A stretch of DNA of 64,000 bases from Cohnella herbarum (GTDB taxonomy: Bacteria; Bacillota; Bacilli; Paenibacillales; Paenibacillaceae): the NCBI RefSeq assembly GCF_012849095.1, contig NZ_CP051680.1, positions 3,498,501-3,562,500 on the forward strand. Reading direction: 5' to 3'. Below the pieces are notes generated by a model. That model ran no database searches and had not been told where the DNA came from. It saw only the letters and a program-made list of their open reading frames with translations. Numbering within the stretch: the first letter of the stretch is position 1; each line of letters opens with the position of its first letter. The translations under genes were made by a program, and so were the position numbers. Of the stretch, positions 3,501 through 40,072 are shown piece by piece.

Positions 3501-5584
3501 TTTTGATCCGTGCGCGCAAACATATAGGCGGAGTTCCCCAAATCTAACCTCAGGGAGTATGCACCGCCGTGCCCTACCGCATTGTCTCTTCCGCCGGAAG
3601 GCGAATACCAGCCGGTCGGGCTGCTTCCGTTCGAATTCGATAATTCGAATCCGGGGTTTGCCAGAAGGTTGGGCTCGTAATGTACCGTTAATGTCATCGG
3701 GCTTAACGACGACTCGCCTACGCTGGCCTGTATTGAAATATTATGATTTCCGATCGCCGTCGCGCTCGTAACATACACGGAGCCGACCACGGATTTGTTT
3801 TCGTACCTGGCCAGTTCGATTCCTTCAGGGAAACTCACGGTAATGGGTCCGACTTGACTTTGCGCTAAGTTGACATGTACCGGGGCTTCTTCGTTATTGA
3901 CGAGATGGAGTTGAATCGGGTACTGTCCGCTTTTCTTAATATCCAGTTCGTTAACCGATAGCGCCGCGCTAACGGACGCGTCCGAATTCCACTTATAGAT
4001 CGGTAGTTCGGCGCCGCTAACCAGCTTTATCGTATTTTGAAGCTCTTTCGCGGCAAGCGACAACTTCTCGTTCGCGGACGAGCCGACGAAAATGTCTGCT
4101 TTGGCAATTCCGGATTCAACGATCGTCGCGGATGGTGATGGTGATGGTGTCGGTGTTGGTGTTGGTGTTGGTGTCGGTGTTGGTGATGGTGTCGGTGTCG
4201 GCGTCGGTGTCGGTGTCGGTGTCGGTGTTGGTGTCGGTGTCGGTGTTGGATTTGATACACCGCCGCCACCGCCTCCTCCCGGGTTCCCTATCGTATTCCG
4301 TTGATCGGACGAAACAAGCTCATTTCCGATCGTAGCCGTTACATTCGGTAAGAAGATCACCTTATCGGGCCACTTCCCGAACTTAACGCCGCTAACGTTA
4401 AGCGTAACGGTCTGAACGACTCCATCGCCGCTAATGATCGCAGGAGCATTAAATATCATGACTATCACTTTAGCGGAGCTGCCCAGTTCGAAGTTTACCC
4501 TTCCGGTCATATGCCGGACTTCATCGAATTGTCCATCCAGAACGATCCTAGCGTCGACTTGTTCGTTCGGAACGAGGACGACGACTGTCACGAATCCCTT
4601 GCCTTGCAATTTTCCTTCTTTCAGAATTCCTCCCGAGAGCATTTGAACTTCTTGAATCTCCGTTGTTCCCTCAACCACGATTCGAATCTTAGAGTTCCAC
4701 TTGTCAACGAACAATGGACCCGACAGCCTGGAATCCCGAATGAGAATGCTGTTTTCTCCGCCGCCCAGAACGTAAGTCGATCCCTTGACCGTTACGCCGT
4801 CCAGCAAGATCTCTCCTTCTCCCGCGCCTTGCGTGATAAATAGGTCGCCGGAAACGACCATATTCTTCAGAGAAACGCCGTCCGTATTCACGACGAGATT
4901 TCCGTCAACGTCGGACTTGTAATCTCCCTTGTCTTTATCCAAAGTTCCCATTACGTTATCTATTAATTGCACGACTTCGGAGCGCGTCGTATTTTCTTTG
5001 GGTTTGAACTGACTAGCCCCATTCCCTTTCAAGTACCCTTTTGCTCTTAAAGCCGACACGTCCGAGAGAGCGTAGGGGGCTATAGACGACGAATCCGTAA
5101 AGCCTTTGTTAGCCTTATCGTCCGTCTTCACCTTGAACGCGCGGGCAACGATAACCGCGGCGTCTTGTCGCGTAATCGGTTTGTTAGGCTCGAACCGATT
5201 GCCGCCTGCTCCCTTAATAATACCGGCAGCGTGAAGTCTGATGACATCTTGCGCGTACCAATCCTTTGCTCCCACATCCGAGAACGGATCGATGCCGGAT
5301 AGAGCAGCCGGCAAGTTGACGACCCGATTAATCAAGGCGGCGAACTCGGAACGGGTGACCGGATTATCCGGCCGGTAGTCCTGATCTTCGTATCCCTTGA
5401 GCAAACCGAGTCCTATCCATTTATCCAAGACCCCCTGCGCCCAATGATTCGAAACATCCGCTGTTCTTTGCTCGCTATTGGCCTTTTCGTTTAACGCCAT
5501 AGCTTGAGCCGGCATCAAGACCATTACGATCATGCTTGCAATCAACACGAACGATAGTACACGTTTAGAACGTACCCTTCCCAC
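584..5584 (-). CDS. S-layer-homology anchored DUF4838 protein with two internal carbohydrate-binding modules
   Basis: About 1666 residues, secreted and probably bound to the cell-wall secondary polymer. The start is GTG at 5584 behind AAGAGGGG; the upstream in-frame ATG at 5638 lacks a ribosome site. Order: signal peptide (1-32), three SLH domains (about 43-85, 98-150, 160-212), a beta-helical-looking region (about 220-420), a Gly run, a Thr-Pro hexanucleotide-encoded linker (about 445-484), a segment like the first half of an alpha-glucuronidase N-terminal domain (about 490-530), an Ig-like piece, two CBM4/9-like modules (about 643-790 and 793-950) that resemble each other closely, the second half of that N-domain plus a DUF4838 barrel (about 960-1430, with [12 protein letters not shown]), and a C-terminal CBM9-like beta-sandwich. 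DUF4838 proteins are suspected polysaccharide enzymes; the substrate is unknown. It has its own promoter. Confidence 0.9.
4132..4249 (-). repeat. Hexanucleotide microsatellite encoding the Thr-Pro linker
   Basis: About 20 copies of GGTGTC or GGTGTT (plus strand) lie inside the S-layer-anchored gene. They encode alternating Thr and Pro (with a few Ser), a stiff wall-spanning linker. The unit is a multiple of three, so copy-number change would lengthen or shorten the linker without a frameshift. Confidence 0.9.
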
Positions 5585-38076: not shown

Positions 38077-38262
38077 TCTAACGGAGCCCACAGCTCTTAT
38101 TCTGCTTAAAAAGTTACTTTTCGAATTCTAACGGAAATGAGCGCTCTTATTCAAGTATTTTCCAACGAAAACAAGTCACATGAGCATAAATAAAGGCTCC
38201 TAGTTCCGTTACAATTTGAATACGCCCGTTTTCGTCAAAATAACGTCGATGGGTTCCGTTAG
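38077..38262. repeat. Four-copy phased intergenic repeat in a large inverted arrangement
   Basis: The 9-mer TCTAACGGA occurs at 38077 and 38127 (plus strand), and its reverse complement form TTCCGTTAC/TTCCGTTAG at 38204 and 38254. Both pairs are spaced exactly 50 bp. The plus copies also share GCTCTTATTC seven bases on, and the reverse copies share a weaker ATTT-rich version. The region (37974-38380) has no gene. It resembles the small intergenic repeat families of Paenibacillus genomes, from memory. Confidence 0.75.
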
Positions 38263-38380
38263 AAAGCAACTCTCTTGGAGGGCGTTATGCTCCCCTATCT
38301 ATTAATTTTTTTCCACTCTCGTATACTTCAAGAAAATTATGTATAATTAAGTAAATAAATGCTGAGGGGAGCGTAGCTGG

Positions 38381-39016
38381 TTGGAGTCTCTCATCTACAT
38401 ACTCATTTATACTCTTGAAGCGTTTTGTACGATTTCGGCTAGCTATATGATGTTTCGGTTCCCTTTCAAAGAGTTTATCGGAAAAAAATTAATTCTCAGC
38501 GTCCTCTTAGCTACATTCTCTTATTCGACAAGAGATATAACAGTCATTAATGAATTTACCATTATCGTGCCTGTAACTTATCTTATTTCCTACACCCTGT
38601 TTATTAAATTCGTCAGTAAAATTCGGATTTTATGGGCGTCCGTTATGATGATAACGGGTTACGCTCTCGTCGGTACCGTTCAAATGATCGTATTTCTGCT
38701 CTATGATGCTTTCGGAGTGGAAATGGCGACCGTCCAAGGCAGTCTATCGTACTTGGTATTAGGACAAGTTCTAACAGCTGCCATTGCATTCCCCTTTTCC
38801 TTCTTCTATTATTATCGCGGTTTCGGGTTCACCTATGATTTTCCTTCGTGGCGGTGGAAGCACCTCTGGCTAGTCCTGCTAGAAGTCTTATTGATTGCCC
38901 TTATCTTTCGATTTCTTCTAGTTAACAACCTAACCTTGACGATTGCTGTCGGTGCTACTCTTTCAGTACTGCTTATTCTGAGTCAGAAATTGGAGAAGGA
39001 GGACAACCTAAAATGA
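38381..39016 (+). CDS. AgrC-like polytopic membrane protein without a kinase domain
   Basis: 211 residues with six or seven predicted membrane helices (about 4-25, 37-50, 59-78, 83-108, 119-144, 160-180, 184-200) and a short charged tail (SQKLEKEDNLK). The size and topology match the N-terminal sensor part of AgrC/FsrC-type histidine kinases, but the protein ends where the dimerisation and ATPase domains would begin, with the next gene starting by ATGA overlap. The start is TTG at 38381 behind GAGGGGAG. A peptide receptor or exporter role is inferred from position, since no sequence motif was recognised. Confidence 0.7.
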   Translation: MESLIYILIYTLEAFCTISASYMMFRFPFKEFIGKKLILSVLLATFSYSTRDITVINEFTIIVPVTYLISYTLFIKFVSKIRILWASVMMITGYALVGTVQMIVFLLYDAFGVEMATVQGSLSYLVLGQVLTAAIAFPFSFFYYYRGFGFTYDFPSWRWKHLWLVLLEVLLIALIFRFLLVNNLTLTIAVGATLSVLLILSQKLEKEDNLK

Positions 39017-39531
39017 ATTGGAGCCGTAAGTTAGCAGACAACTTAGCGCTTAAAATTCACGCGGCCAATCCTCATCATCCGATCAGTCTTCCTGTCCAGA
39101 GATATGCGATCGAAACGATTGTTACGAATACAACAATAATTATCATTTCATTATTTTTGGGTCTCTTACTCGAACAAGCGTTACAAGTTCTCACTGTAAT
39201 AGTCGCTTTTCCCCTGTTACGATTTGTAACAGGCGGTCACCATTTCAAATCGCCTACTGCTTGCATTATAACGACAATTATTGGCTTTAACACAATACCG
39301 ATGCTCGCCCAAAATATTCAATCGACATCCGCTACACTTGCTCTAACTCTAGGAAGTCTTCTGCTATGTCTCGTATTTGCTCCGCAAGGAAAACGCGCCA
39401 TCATCAAGCAACAACAGATTATCAAGCTTGTAGGAGGGGCGATTATCACCGTAAATTTACTGGTCATGTCTCCCGTTCTCGCCATAGCATTTTTCCTGCA
39501 AGCTTTAACTCTTATACACTTCAGAAGATGA
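39013..39531 (+). CDS. agrB: AgrB-type membrane endopeptidase
   Basis: 172 residues, four or more membrane helices. The catalytic arrangement Arg70, His77 and Cys84 (in LLRFVTGGHHFKSPTAC) has the same spacing as S. aureus AgrB, where His and Cys form the active site. It cleaves the C-terminal tail of AgrD and forms the thiolactone ring. ATG at 39013 overlaps the previous stop and follows GGAGG by nine bases. An AgrD gene follows 14 bp later. Confidence 0.92.
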   Translation: MNWSRKLADNLALKIHAANPHHPISLPVQRYAIETIVTNTTIIIISLFLGLLLEQALQVLTVIVAFPLLRFVTGGHHFKSPTACIITTIIGFNTIPMLAQNIQSTSATLALTLGSLLLCLVFAPQGKRAIIKQQQIIKLVGGAIITVNLLVMSPVLAIAFFLQALTLIHFRR

Positions 39532-39545
39532 GGAGGTGAAAGAAC

Positions 39546-39674
39546 ATGAAAAAAATCAAGCTAATGTCATTGTTCGCGCTTTCTTCTATTTTAGGAATCG
39601 TTGCCTTTGCACAAGCTTCCTTTGCTTGCCAGTTAGGTATGTACGACCCTGAACTACCTGAAGAATTGCAGTAG
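39546..39674 (+). CDS. agrD: AgrD-type cyclic lactone autoinducer prepeptide
   Basis: 42 residues: an amphipathic basic leader (1-27, MKKIKLMSLFALSS...), then Cys28 and the core CQLGM or CQLGMY, then an acidic tail DPELPEELQ. The tail aligns with the PKEL-type recognition tail of AgrD, with PEEL in the same place. The predicted ring joins Cys28 to Met32 (or Tyr33). The gene has a perfect GGAGGTG ribosome site and sits 14 bp after agrB. It is too short for routine gene calling, so it is easily missed. Confidence 0.88.
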   Translation: MKKIKLMSLFALSSILGIVAFAQASFACQLGMYDPELPEELQ

Positions 39675-39683
39675 GAGGAGCTT

Positions 39684-40055
39684 ATGGAATGGATAAAGGA
39701 GCTCCCTGTAAGCCGAGACCCTAAAGGTGCAACAGGCATCGTGTCATTGCCATTGGACTCCATTCTATATATCCACTTCTACGAGGCCGTTATTCAAGTC
39801 CATACCGCAACAGAAATGTATTACTTCACGTTAGGGAGCAATCTAAGCTTGCTTGTCGATAACCTCAACAACTCGGGATTCCATTTCGAGAAAACCGATC
39901 GTGCGCAGGTCGCAGATTATCGACGAATTAGCCATATCGAGAAAACCGAGTTTTTTCAGTACAGAGGTTACTTCGAGGGTACGGCCAAATATGTGATCTT
40001 CTCGGAAAGCAATTACAGGAAAGCCGCGAAAATATTAAAGGATCGCTCGAAATAG
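39684..40055 (+). CDS. Stand-alone LytTR-like DNA-binding protein
   Basis: 123 residues. PLDSILYIHFYEAVIQVHT and the region TLGSNLSLLVDNLNNSGFHF resemble the beta-rich LytTR domain found at the C-terminus of AgrA-type regulators; no receiver domain precedes it. The match is moderate and by eye. ATG at 39684 follows GGAGGAG, nine bases after the agrD stop. It could be the transcription factor of the peptide system, but how the signal reaches it without a kinase is open. Confidence 0.7.
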   Translation: MEWIKELPVSRDPKGATGIVSLPLDSILYIHFYEAVIQVHTATEMYYFTLGSNLSLLVDNLNNSGFHFEKTDRAQVADYRRISHIEKTEFFQYRGYFEGTAKYVIFSESNYRKAAKILKDRSK

Positions 40056-40072
40056 AGCGATCCTTTAATATT
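40031..40072 (+). other. Perfect 18-bp hairpin across the LytTR stop codon
   Basis: 40031-40048 is the exact reverse complement of 40055-40072, with a 6-nt loop. The arms include AAAGGATCGCTC. It contains the last codons and stop of the LytTR-like gene. No T-run follows, so it is not a typical terminator; an RNA end-protecting or control element is possible. Confidence 0.7.

Follow-up and report, generated by a model that had tools for sequence, protein, structure and literature searches.

An agr-type operon of Cohnella herbarum with neither histidine kinase nor receiver domain: a candidate for direct-contact peptide signalling

The agr system, a model for quorum sensing by peptides, is taught as a phosphorelay, the staphylococcal type comprising AgrB, AgrD, the histidine kinase AgrC and AgrA, a regulator with a receiver domain. 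In a stretch of 64,000 nucleotides from the Cohnella herbarum genome (the window), a four-gene operon encodes an AgrB, an AgrD, a membrane protein of the AgrC type and a LytTR protein, with no histidine kinase and no receiver. How might a signal pass from the membrane to DNA in such a system? The first-pass annotation, made from the letters alone, described the path as missing or different and offered three answers: direct contact between the membrane protein and the LytTR protein, a kinase encoded elsewhere, or peptide export only.

Here we describe the parts of the operon, their relatives and the evidence that bears on each answer. We consider that the operon probably represents a kinase-free agr system, in which an AgrC-type receptor for a cyclic peptide would control a LytTR protein by direct contact. 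We also lean, slightly, to the broader reading that direct-contact quorum sensing by cyclic peptides, using an AgrC-related seven-helix receptor and a LytTR protein after loss of both kinase and receiver, is widespread in Paenibacillaceae, two other families and phages. If this is true, the same kind of sensor can drive transcription through direct contact, systems of the LytTR Regulatory type gain a defined chemical input, and there is a testable model for the loss of phosphotransfer by two-component systems.

Operon anatomy

The four genes, which the annotation had called tightly coupled, lie as it described on the plus strand, with overlaps or gaps of at most 14 bases. The features of the locus are as follows.

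38340..38347, + strand: extended -10 element TGTATAAT, putative operon promoter
38364..38371, + strand: putative ribosome-binding site of the receptor gene, read off the sequence
38381..39016, + strand: kinase-less AgrC-type receptor, 211 aa, TTG start, seven predicted transmembrane helices, profile match to AgrC-type sensor halves
39013..39531, + strand: AgrB peptidase, 172 aa, R70/H77/C84, PF04647
39546..39674, + strand: AgrD signal precursor, 42 aa, predicted ring CQLGM followed by YDPELPEELQ, TIGR04223
39684..40055, + strand: lone LytTR DNA-binding protein without receiver, 123 aa, PF04397 and AgrA LytTR fold
40037..40066, + strand: inverted repeat at the end of the LytTR gene, possible operon end, read off the sequence

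To judge from its conservation, the operon is real and maintained. The whole gene order is preserved in the Cohnella loci L005-L008, and third codon positions take most of the substitutions in all four genes (C. herbarum operon with L005, L007 and L008), so that all four are under purifying selection. Upstream, the eight bases of the extended -10 element are identical in all seven rows of an alignment of the C. herbarum operon with six relatives (two rows, L008 and L032, being alike), and the same alignment keeps the GGAG block of the putative ribosome-binding site; a consensus scan gave no -35 match for the -10 element. The inverted repeat at the far end was not reported by a terminator scan, because no T run follows it. 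PADLOC gave no match.

AgrB matches PF04647 at 65.1 bits (cut-off 23) and carries R70, H77 and C84, counted on the translation, which we take to be its catalytic residues; AgrD matches TIGR04223 at 20.0 bits (cut-off 19), and both assignments agree with the annotation. The AgrD cysteine stands 10 residues ahead of a conserved P-x-E-L, and the size of the predicted ring assumes an analogy with AgrD of S. aureus. Among close relatives the ring residues vary (CQLGM, CQYGM, CGFGL, CAWGL) and the flanks are conserved, as expected for a specific signal. The four AgrD peptides of the C. herbarum genome also differ at the ring, so they are likely to be four separate signals. Across the loci surveyed, L005-L008 included, a pattern score found AgrD-like peptides in 107 of 121 AgrB sets; the residue ten before P-x-E-L is Ser in 46 and Cys in 28, and in the remaining 33 it is shifted or both are absent.

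The LytTR protein matches PF04397 (26.8 bits, cut-off 22.6), and its structure model (pLDDT 92.5) retrieves 4g4k, 4xqj and 3bs1 in Foldseek (E 1.4e-4 to 7.7e-4), all of them AgrA LytTR structures. The lone LytTR-like last gene of the annotation is borne out in both ways, and the possibility it had allowed for, that this gene might prove unlike LytTR, falls away. Four named relatives of the protein, 84-88% identical, all come from Cohnella.

Up to E 10 the receptor matches nothing in Pfam or NCBIfam, but the profile of its family finds the N-terminal half of AgrC-type proteins adjoining AgrB. The structure model has seven helices (pLDDT 88.7, pTM 0.84), and positive charges fit the predicted topology, in which the N terminus lies outside and the C terminus inside. 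Since the best Foldseek match of the model in the PDB has E 0.63, no solved structure supports it. A sequencing error truncating a full kinase, against which the annotation had cautioned, is rejected as the origin of the short receptor, its length being preserved in relatives: among 22 proteins found by a receptor search, 17 measure 188-216 aa, one has 268 aa, the extra length being an earlier start, and four have 122-173 aa, including a shortened reading of the operon's own receptor gene. That search was unable to list proteins more than 1.75 times as long as the query, which a survey of genomes can do.

The receptor family and its AgrC-type relatives

In such a survey, the receptor profile (A3) matched in 77 of 118 Paenibacillaceae genomes, from 16 of 19 genera. 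We analysed 135 receptor copies out of 141 survey rows, and found AgrB and LytTR genes with profiles from the four loci of the C. herbarum genome itself. The order receptor-AgrB-LytTR, for which the annotation had proposed to search other Paenibacillaceae, occurs in 101 of the 135 copies; 16 loci have AgrB but no LytTR, 8 have LytTR but no AgrB in the fetched stretch, 7 have neither, and in 3 AgrB lies elsewhere in the fetched stretch. By frame length and a read-back check, none of the 135 copies leaves room for a kinase domain on the receptor: 133 frames are of 278 aa or less, and the candidate kinase fusions, frames of 311 and 425 aa, are upstream read-back. The survey thus gave no kinase frame for the receptor family, which disposes of the annotation's reservation that homologues of the first gene might carry one. 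The 112 LytTR frames in the surveyed loci measure 109-186 aa, none of them long enough to hold a receiver alongside LytTR. The arrangement is the usual form in the receptor family, and not the isolated oddity that the first-pass annotation saw in it; the parts and distribution of the kinase-less system are solid.

The genome of C. herbarum is uniform in this respect, with all four AgrB genes in receptor-AgrB-AgrD-LytTR loci whose receptor has no kinase, each combining a receptor of 211-219 aa with AgrB, AgrD and either a single lone LytTR protein or two. It encodes seven LytTR proteins, five in agr loci; outside these loci are a fusion of an ABC ATPase with LytTR and a LytTR protein of 129 aa that stands alone, and a receiver is absent from all seven. 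At 616-1809 of locus L009, an ABC transporter ATPase is fused to a LytTR domain, and another ABC ATPase-like gene follows. A GHKL-type match was present in the fetched locus for 9 of 139 receptor genes; at five loci of the genus Cohnella (L030, L062, L070, L072, L087), a GHKL kinase frame of 448-460 aa is divergent from the kinase-less agr operon. The frame of L030 lies at 3812-5161, and L072 has two such frames.

Beyond the family, a profile of 70 rows (A5) matched in 52 of 299 genomes of the class, and kinase-less receptor frames were present in two further families. Such receptors pair with a lone LytTR protein, together with AgrB, at L173-L176, L178, L209 and L210; the one exception seen is L205 (the same locus as L179), where receptor and AgrB are followed by a receiver-LytTR protein of 253 aa, its receiver found in Pfam. 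Loci L206-L208, from another family, hold a kinase-less receptor and AgrB, with no LytTR within stretches of about 8.5-9 kb. Five weak A5 matches (E ~1e-4) that were fetched, L215-L219, were set aside, having no AgrB, LytTR or GHKL match at E <1; one of these proteins looks transporter-like.

A5 also matched frames of about 390-490 aa, and all 14 of those fetched adjoin AgrB (one AgrB being in two fragments). Seven of them (L198-L204) show the phospho-acceptor His and the N and G boxes in alignment, save L198, whose frame breaks off ahead of the G box with the rest of the ATPase in the next frame; the three tested in Pfam have HATPase_c and SPOB_a. In seven AgrC-type proteins adjoining AgrB (L191-L197), phospho-acceptor His, N and G boxes are absent from the alignment; a GHKL profile gave partial matches in five (E 4e-8 to 6e-5), and three tested in Pfam had no ATPase match.

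With hhalign, A5 aligned to the sensor halves of seven intact-box kinases (97.4%, E 9.1e-12, 143 columns) and of six degenerate kinases (99.4%, E 1.3e-21, 183 columns); the test is not independent, since both sets were found with A5 itself, and it took in AgrB-linked AgrC-type proteins and no characterised AgrC, while the AgrB neighbours are independent. The profile check against sensor domains that the annotation had suggested was therefore positive as far as AgrB-linked AgrC-type sensor halves are concerned. The reading of the receptor as the sensor half of AgrC-type proteins is supported by these alignments, and homology likewise favours the annotation's view of an AgrC-like membrane protein that ends where the kinase would start, beside a LytTR protein without receiver.

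An unrooted tree of 91 sensor domains sets the kinase rows apart by a branch at 100/97 and the degenerate rows by one at 96/93; the kinase-less rows need two changes, because two long rows fall weakly with the kinases. LytTR proteins were found beside four of the degenerate-kinase receptors (L191, L193, L194, L195; 240-245 aa), and the two tested in Pfam have a receiver. Since the stretches fetched around the seven intact kinases contained no LytTR gene, the link between kinase and receiver rests on these four degenerate-kinase loci. It is possible that the relatives with degenerate kinases are an intermediate stage. At L196 and L197, a soluble kinase is encoded separately, ahead of the AgrC-type degenerate-kinase gene, and the one tested in Pfam has HisKA and HATPase_c.

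Paths from the membrane to DNA

Direct contact is the best supported of the three paths, because kinase and receiver are absent across the family, receptor-LytTR pairs occur without AgrB, and the conserved face of the receptor is, by prediction, the cytoplasmic one. By homology, AgrB would cut and cyclise AgrD, and the cyclic peptide would accumulate outside. The 211-residue protein, predicted to be an AgrC sensor half of seven helices with its N end outside and its C end inside, would use its cytoplasmic loops and C-terminal end, in place of the kinase, for direct binding of the lone LytTR protein. In the absence of peptide the receptor may keep LytTR inactive at the membrane, and once peptide is bound LytTR may be released, bind DNA and raise the operon and its targets, although in both states the sign could be the reverse. 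Such a circuit would operate like the LytTR Regulatory Systems, which consist of a membrane inhibitor and a LytTR protein, except that its signal would be an Agr peptide.

Across 75 kinase-less receptors, conservation is 0.485, 0.501 and 0.444 in the cytoplasmic loops (5, 3 and 10 positions) and 0.238, 0.263 and 0.169 in the outside loops (6, 11 and 3 positions), a roughly twofold difference over few positions (18 versus 20). On this pattern, the conserved cytoplasmic face could be a common docking face for LytTR and the variable face could bind the peptide. Residues 26, 149, 150 and 152 are R, G, F and F in the receptor family (Y at 152 in the C. herbarum operon), and nine kinase rows mostly differ. 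A C-terminal [RK][RK][ED] is common in the family, reads K-L-E in the C. herbarum operon, and has its K/R part also in degenerate-kinase rows. Counting against direct contact are the lack of upstream direct repeats, the reversed gene order, the 16 of 135 loci without LytTR, the receiver-LytTR protein of L205 and the divergent kinases.

Peptide export only, or a role in immunity or as an accessory, would have the membrane protein aid AgrB or protect the producer while LytTR follows its own signal, as the 16 loci with receptor and AgrB but no LytTR, and the 7 in which the membrane gene has neither, would lead one to expect. We think this unlikely, because LytTR is present in 101 of the 117 loci with AgrB next to the receptor; moreover, 8 loci have receptor and LytTR without AgrB, AgrD has the variable ring and conserved flanks of a specific signal, and the domain homologous to the receptor is the peptide sensor of AgrC.

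A kinase acting in trans, by which a full AgrC-like GHKL kinase elsewhere would read the peptide or be recruited and its phosphorylation would reach LytTR via another protein, is weakened by the lack of any receiver-LytTR protein in the C. herbarum genome for a kinase to act on, and we regard it as improbable. The genome does encode AgrC-like GHKL kinases, at least two of them (445 and 449 aa, with SPOB_a and HATPase), recognised among five inspected proteins from 20 HATPase_c_5 matches; one is divergent from the fourth agr locus, as similar frames are at four loci of the same genus, and at two loci from other families a gene for a separate soluble kinase stands ahead of a degenerate AgrC-type gene. 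The HATPase_c_5 search gave no match in the window, however, the nearest listed being more than 300 kb from the operon, and in ten genomes of the same genus one of 33 LytTR frames has 200 aa or more (284 aa). Among 20 relatives, LytTR frames of 249-272 aa are present in other genera.

Direct coupling of the opposite sign or by regulated proteolysis, with the peptide-bound receptor either recruiting LytTR to the membrane and activating it there or making it accessible to a protease, is also consistent with this anatomy and conservation, but the studied precedent, the LytTR systems of Streptococcus mutans, is inhibitory, and we judge this version the least probable.

Known systems and phage cassettes

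Like staphylococcal agr, the C. herbarum operon has AgrB with the presumed catalytic residues, an AgrD precursor with ring residue and P-x-E-L tail, a relative of the AgrC sensor half (by comparison with AgrB-linked AgrC-type sets) and a LytTR domain of the AgrA fold; unlike it, the operon has neither the histidine kinase domain of AgrC nor the receiver of AgrA, and its order is receptor-AgrB-AgrD-LytTR.

HdrRM and BrsRM of S. mutans, LytTR Regulatory Systems (Zou et al. 2018, PMC6193735), resemble the operon in joining, within a single operon, a lone LytTR protein and a kinase-less membrane protein, in our case modelled with seven helices. They differ from it in that our receptor is related to AgrC, has the first place among the genes and goes with AgrB and AgrD. 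According to section 9 of that paper, the rule for such systems is a regulator gene upstream of the membrane gene, the S. mutans-type order, with the reverse order in LRS-like operons of Bacteroides; here the receptor is first and LytTR last. The 8 loci with receptor and LytTR alone have the make-up of a LytTR Regulatory System, in reverse order. The membrane protein of the S. mutans systems is an inhibitor of the regulator, and 'AgrB' and 'Paenibacillus' are absent from the main text of that paper. A further mark of LytTR Regulatory Systems is a set of direct repeats that lie some 10 bp upstream of the -35 of the operon. The operon is agr by its signal half and like a LytTR Regulatory System by its output half, and a full member of neither.

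Direct repeats of this kind were not found: over 125 upstream stretches, 21-bp direct repeats were not above shuffles. An excess of 6-mers repeated at exactly 21 bp (21 against a shuffled mean of 11.8, the largest of 20 shuffles being 17) was gone over all spacings, and an excess of 10-bp repeats (11 of 125 versus 2.2) was discarded as a regulatory site, having no motif in common on inspection. The motif CCACTYT, picked after looking, occurs in 9 of 128 upstream stretches versus 1.3 expected (largest of 40 shuffles, 4); it resembles a half-site of LytTR Regulatory Systems and stands at 38312-38319, as well as upstream in L029, L030, L103 and others. Three copies of TTCCGTTA(G/C)A lie at 38127-38263, and the repeat recurs across the genome at spacings of 50 and 77 bases. 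The upstream repeat TTCCGTTASA was rejected as a LytTR site, because it is found genome-wide (98 matches versus 54 in the reversed control) and is absent from Cohnella L005-L008.

Kinase-less cassettes also occur in integrase-bearing phages of Brevibacillus laterosporus and Paenibacillus larvae. In the Brevibacillus phages Emery, Davies and Abouo and the Paenibacillus phage Harrison, the cassette includes AgrB, a LytTR-like gene, a small frame and either a single receptor or two (L211 33812-36223; L212 4244-6659; L213 4244-5923; L214 2840-4504). The receptor profile finds all six phage receptors (E 4.8e-35 to 1.4e-49), and the LytTR profile finds all four of the LytTR genes (E 1.2e-15 to 1.7e-19); the Emery LytTR is under the Pfam cut-off (19.1 versus 22.6 bits), and that of Harrison, named a peptidase in its record, is above it (29.1 bits). 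These cassettes came from a search with the Emery AgrB, which gave 11 phage records, four cassettes being examined; no phages were found with the AgrB of the C. herbarum operon, and a scan of viral contigs with the Emery receptor gave no match. In Davies, Abouo and Harrison the cassette has an integrase or recombinase gene as its neighbour, and in Emery a XerC-type recombinase lies about 2 kb off, so that lysogeny control is an obvious idea for what the cassette might do.

Hargreaves et al. (2014, PMC3901668) reported that Davies, Emery and Abouo carry AgrB, AgrD and one or two membrane proteins, which they proposed may be AgrC homologues lacking the ATPase domain. Those membrane proteins match the C. 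herbarum-type receptor profile, and the LytTR-like gene of the cassettes, found here, is not named in the relevant passages of that paper, where 'LytTR' has two uses, for C. difficile and for Pseudomonas phages. Phage AgrB is listed in PMC4909266 and PMC4168068, in whose text the word LytTR is absent, as are 'Paenibacillus' and 'Brevibacillus' from that of PMC13151043. Among the open-licence matches listed, a set outside which most subscription-journal papers lie, no title or opening of an abstract describes an AgrC-type kinase-less receptor with a lone LytTR protein; the nearest published systems are those of Zou 2018 and Hargreaves 2014.

In AgrD-like peptides of L122, L128, L133, L141 and L149, and in phage small frames, both Cys and Ser are missing from the ring position; examples have I, L or M there, followed by Lys, as in the phage frame at 35732-35848 of L211.
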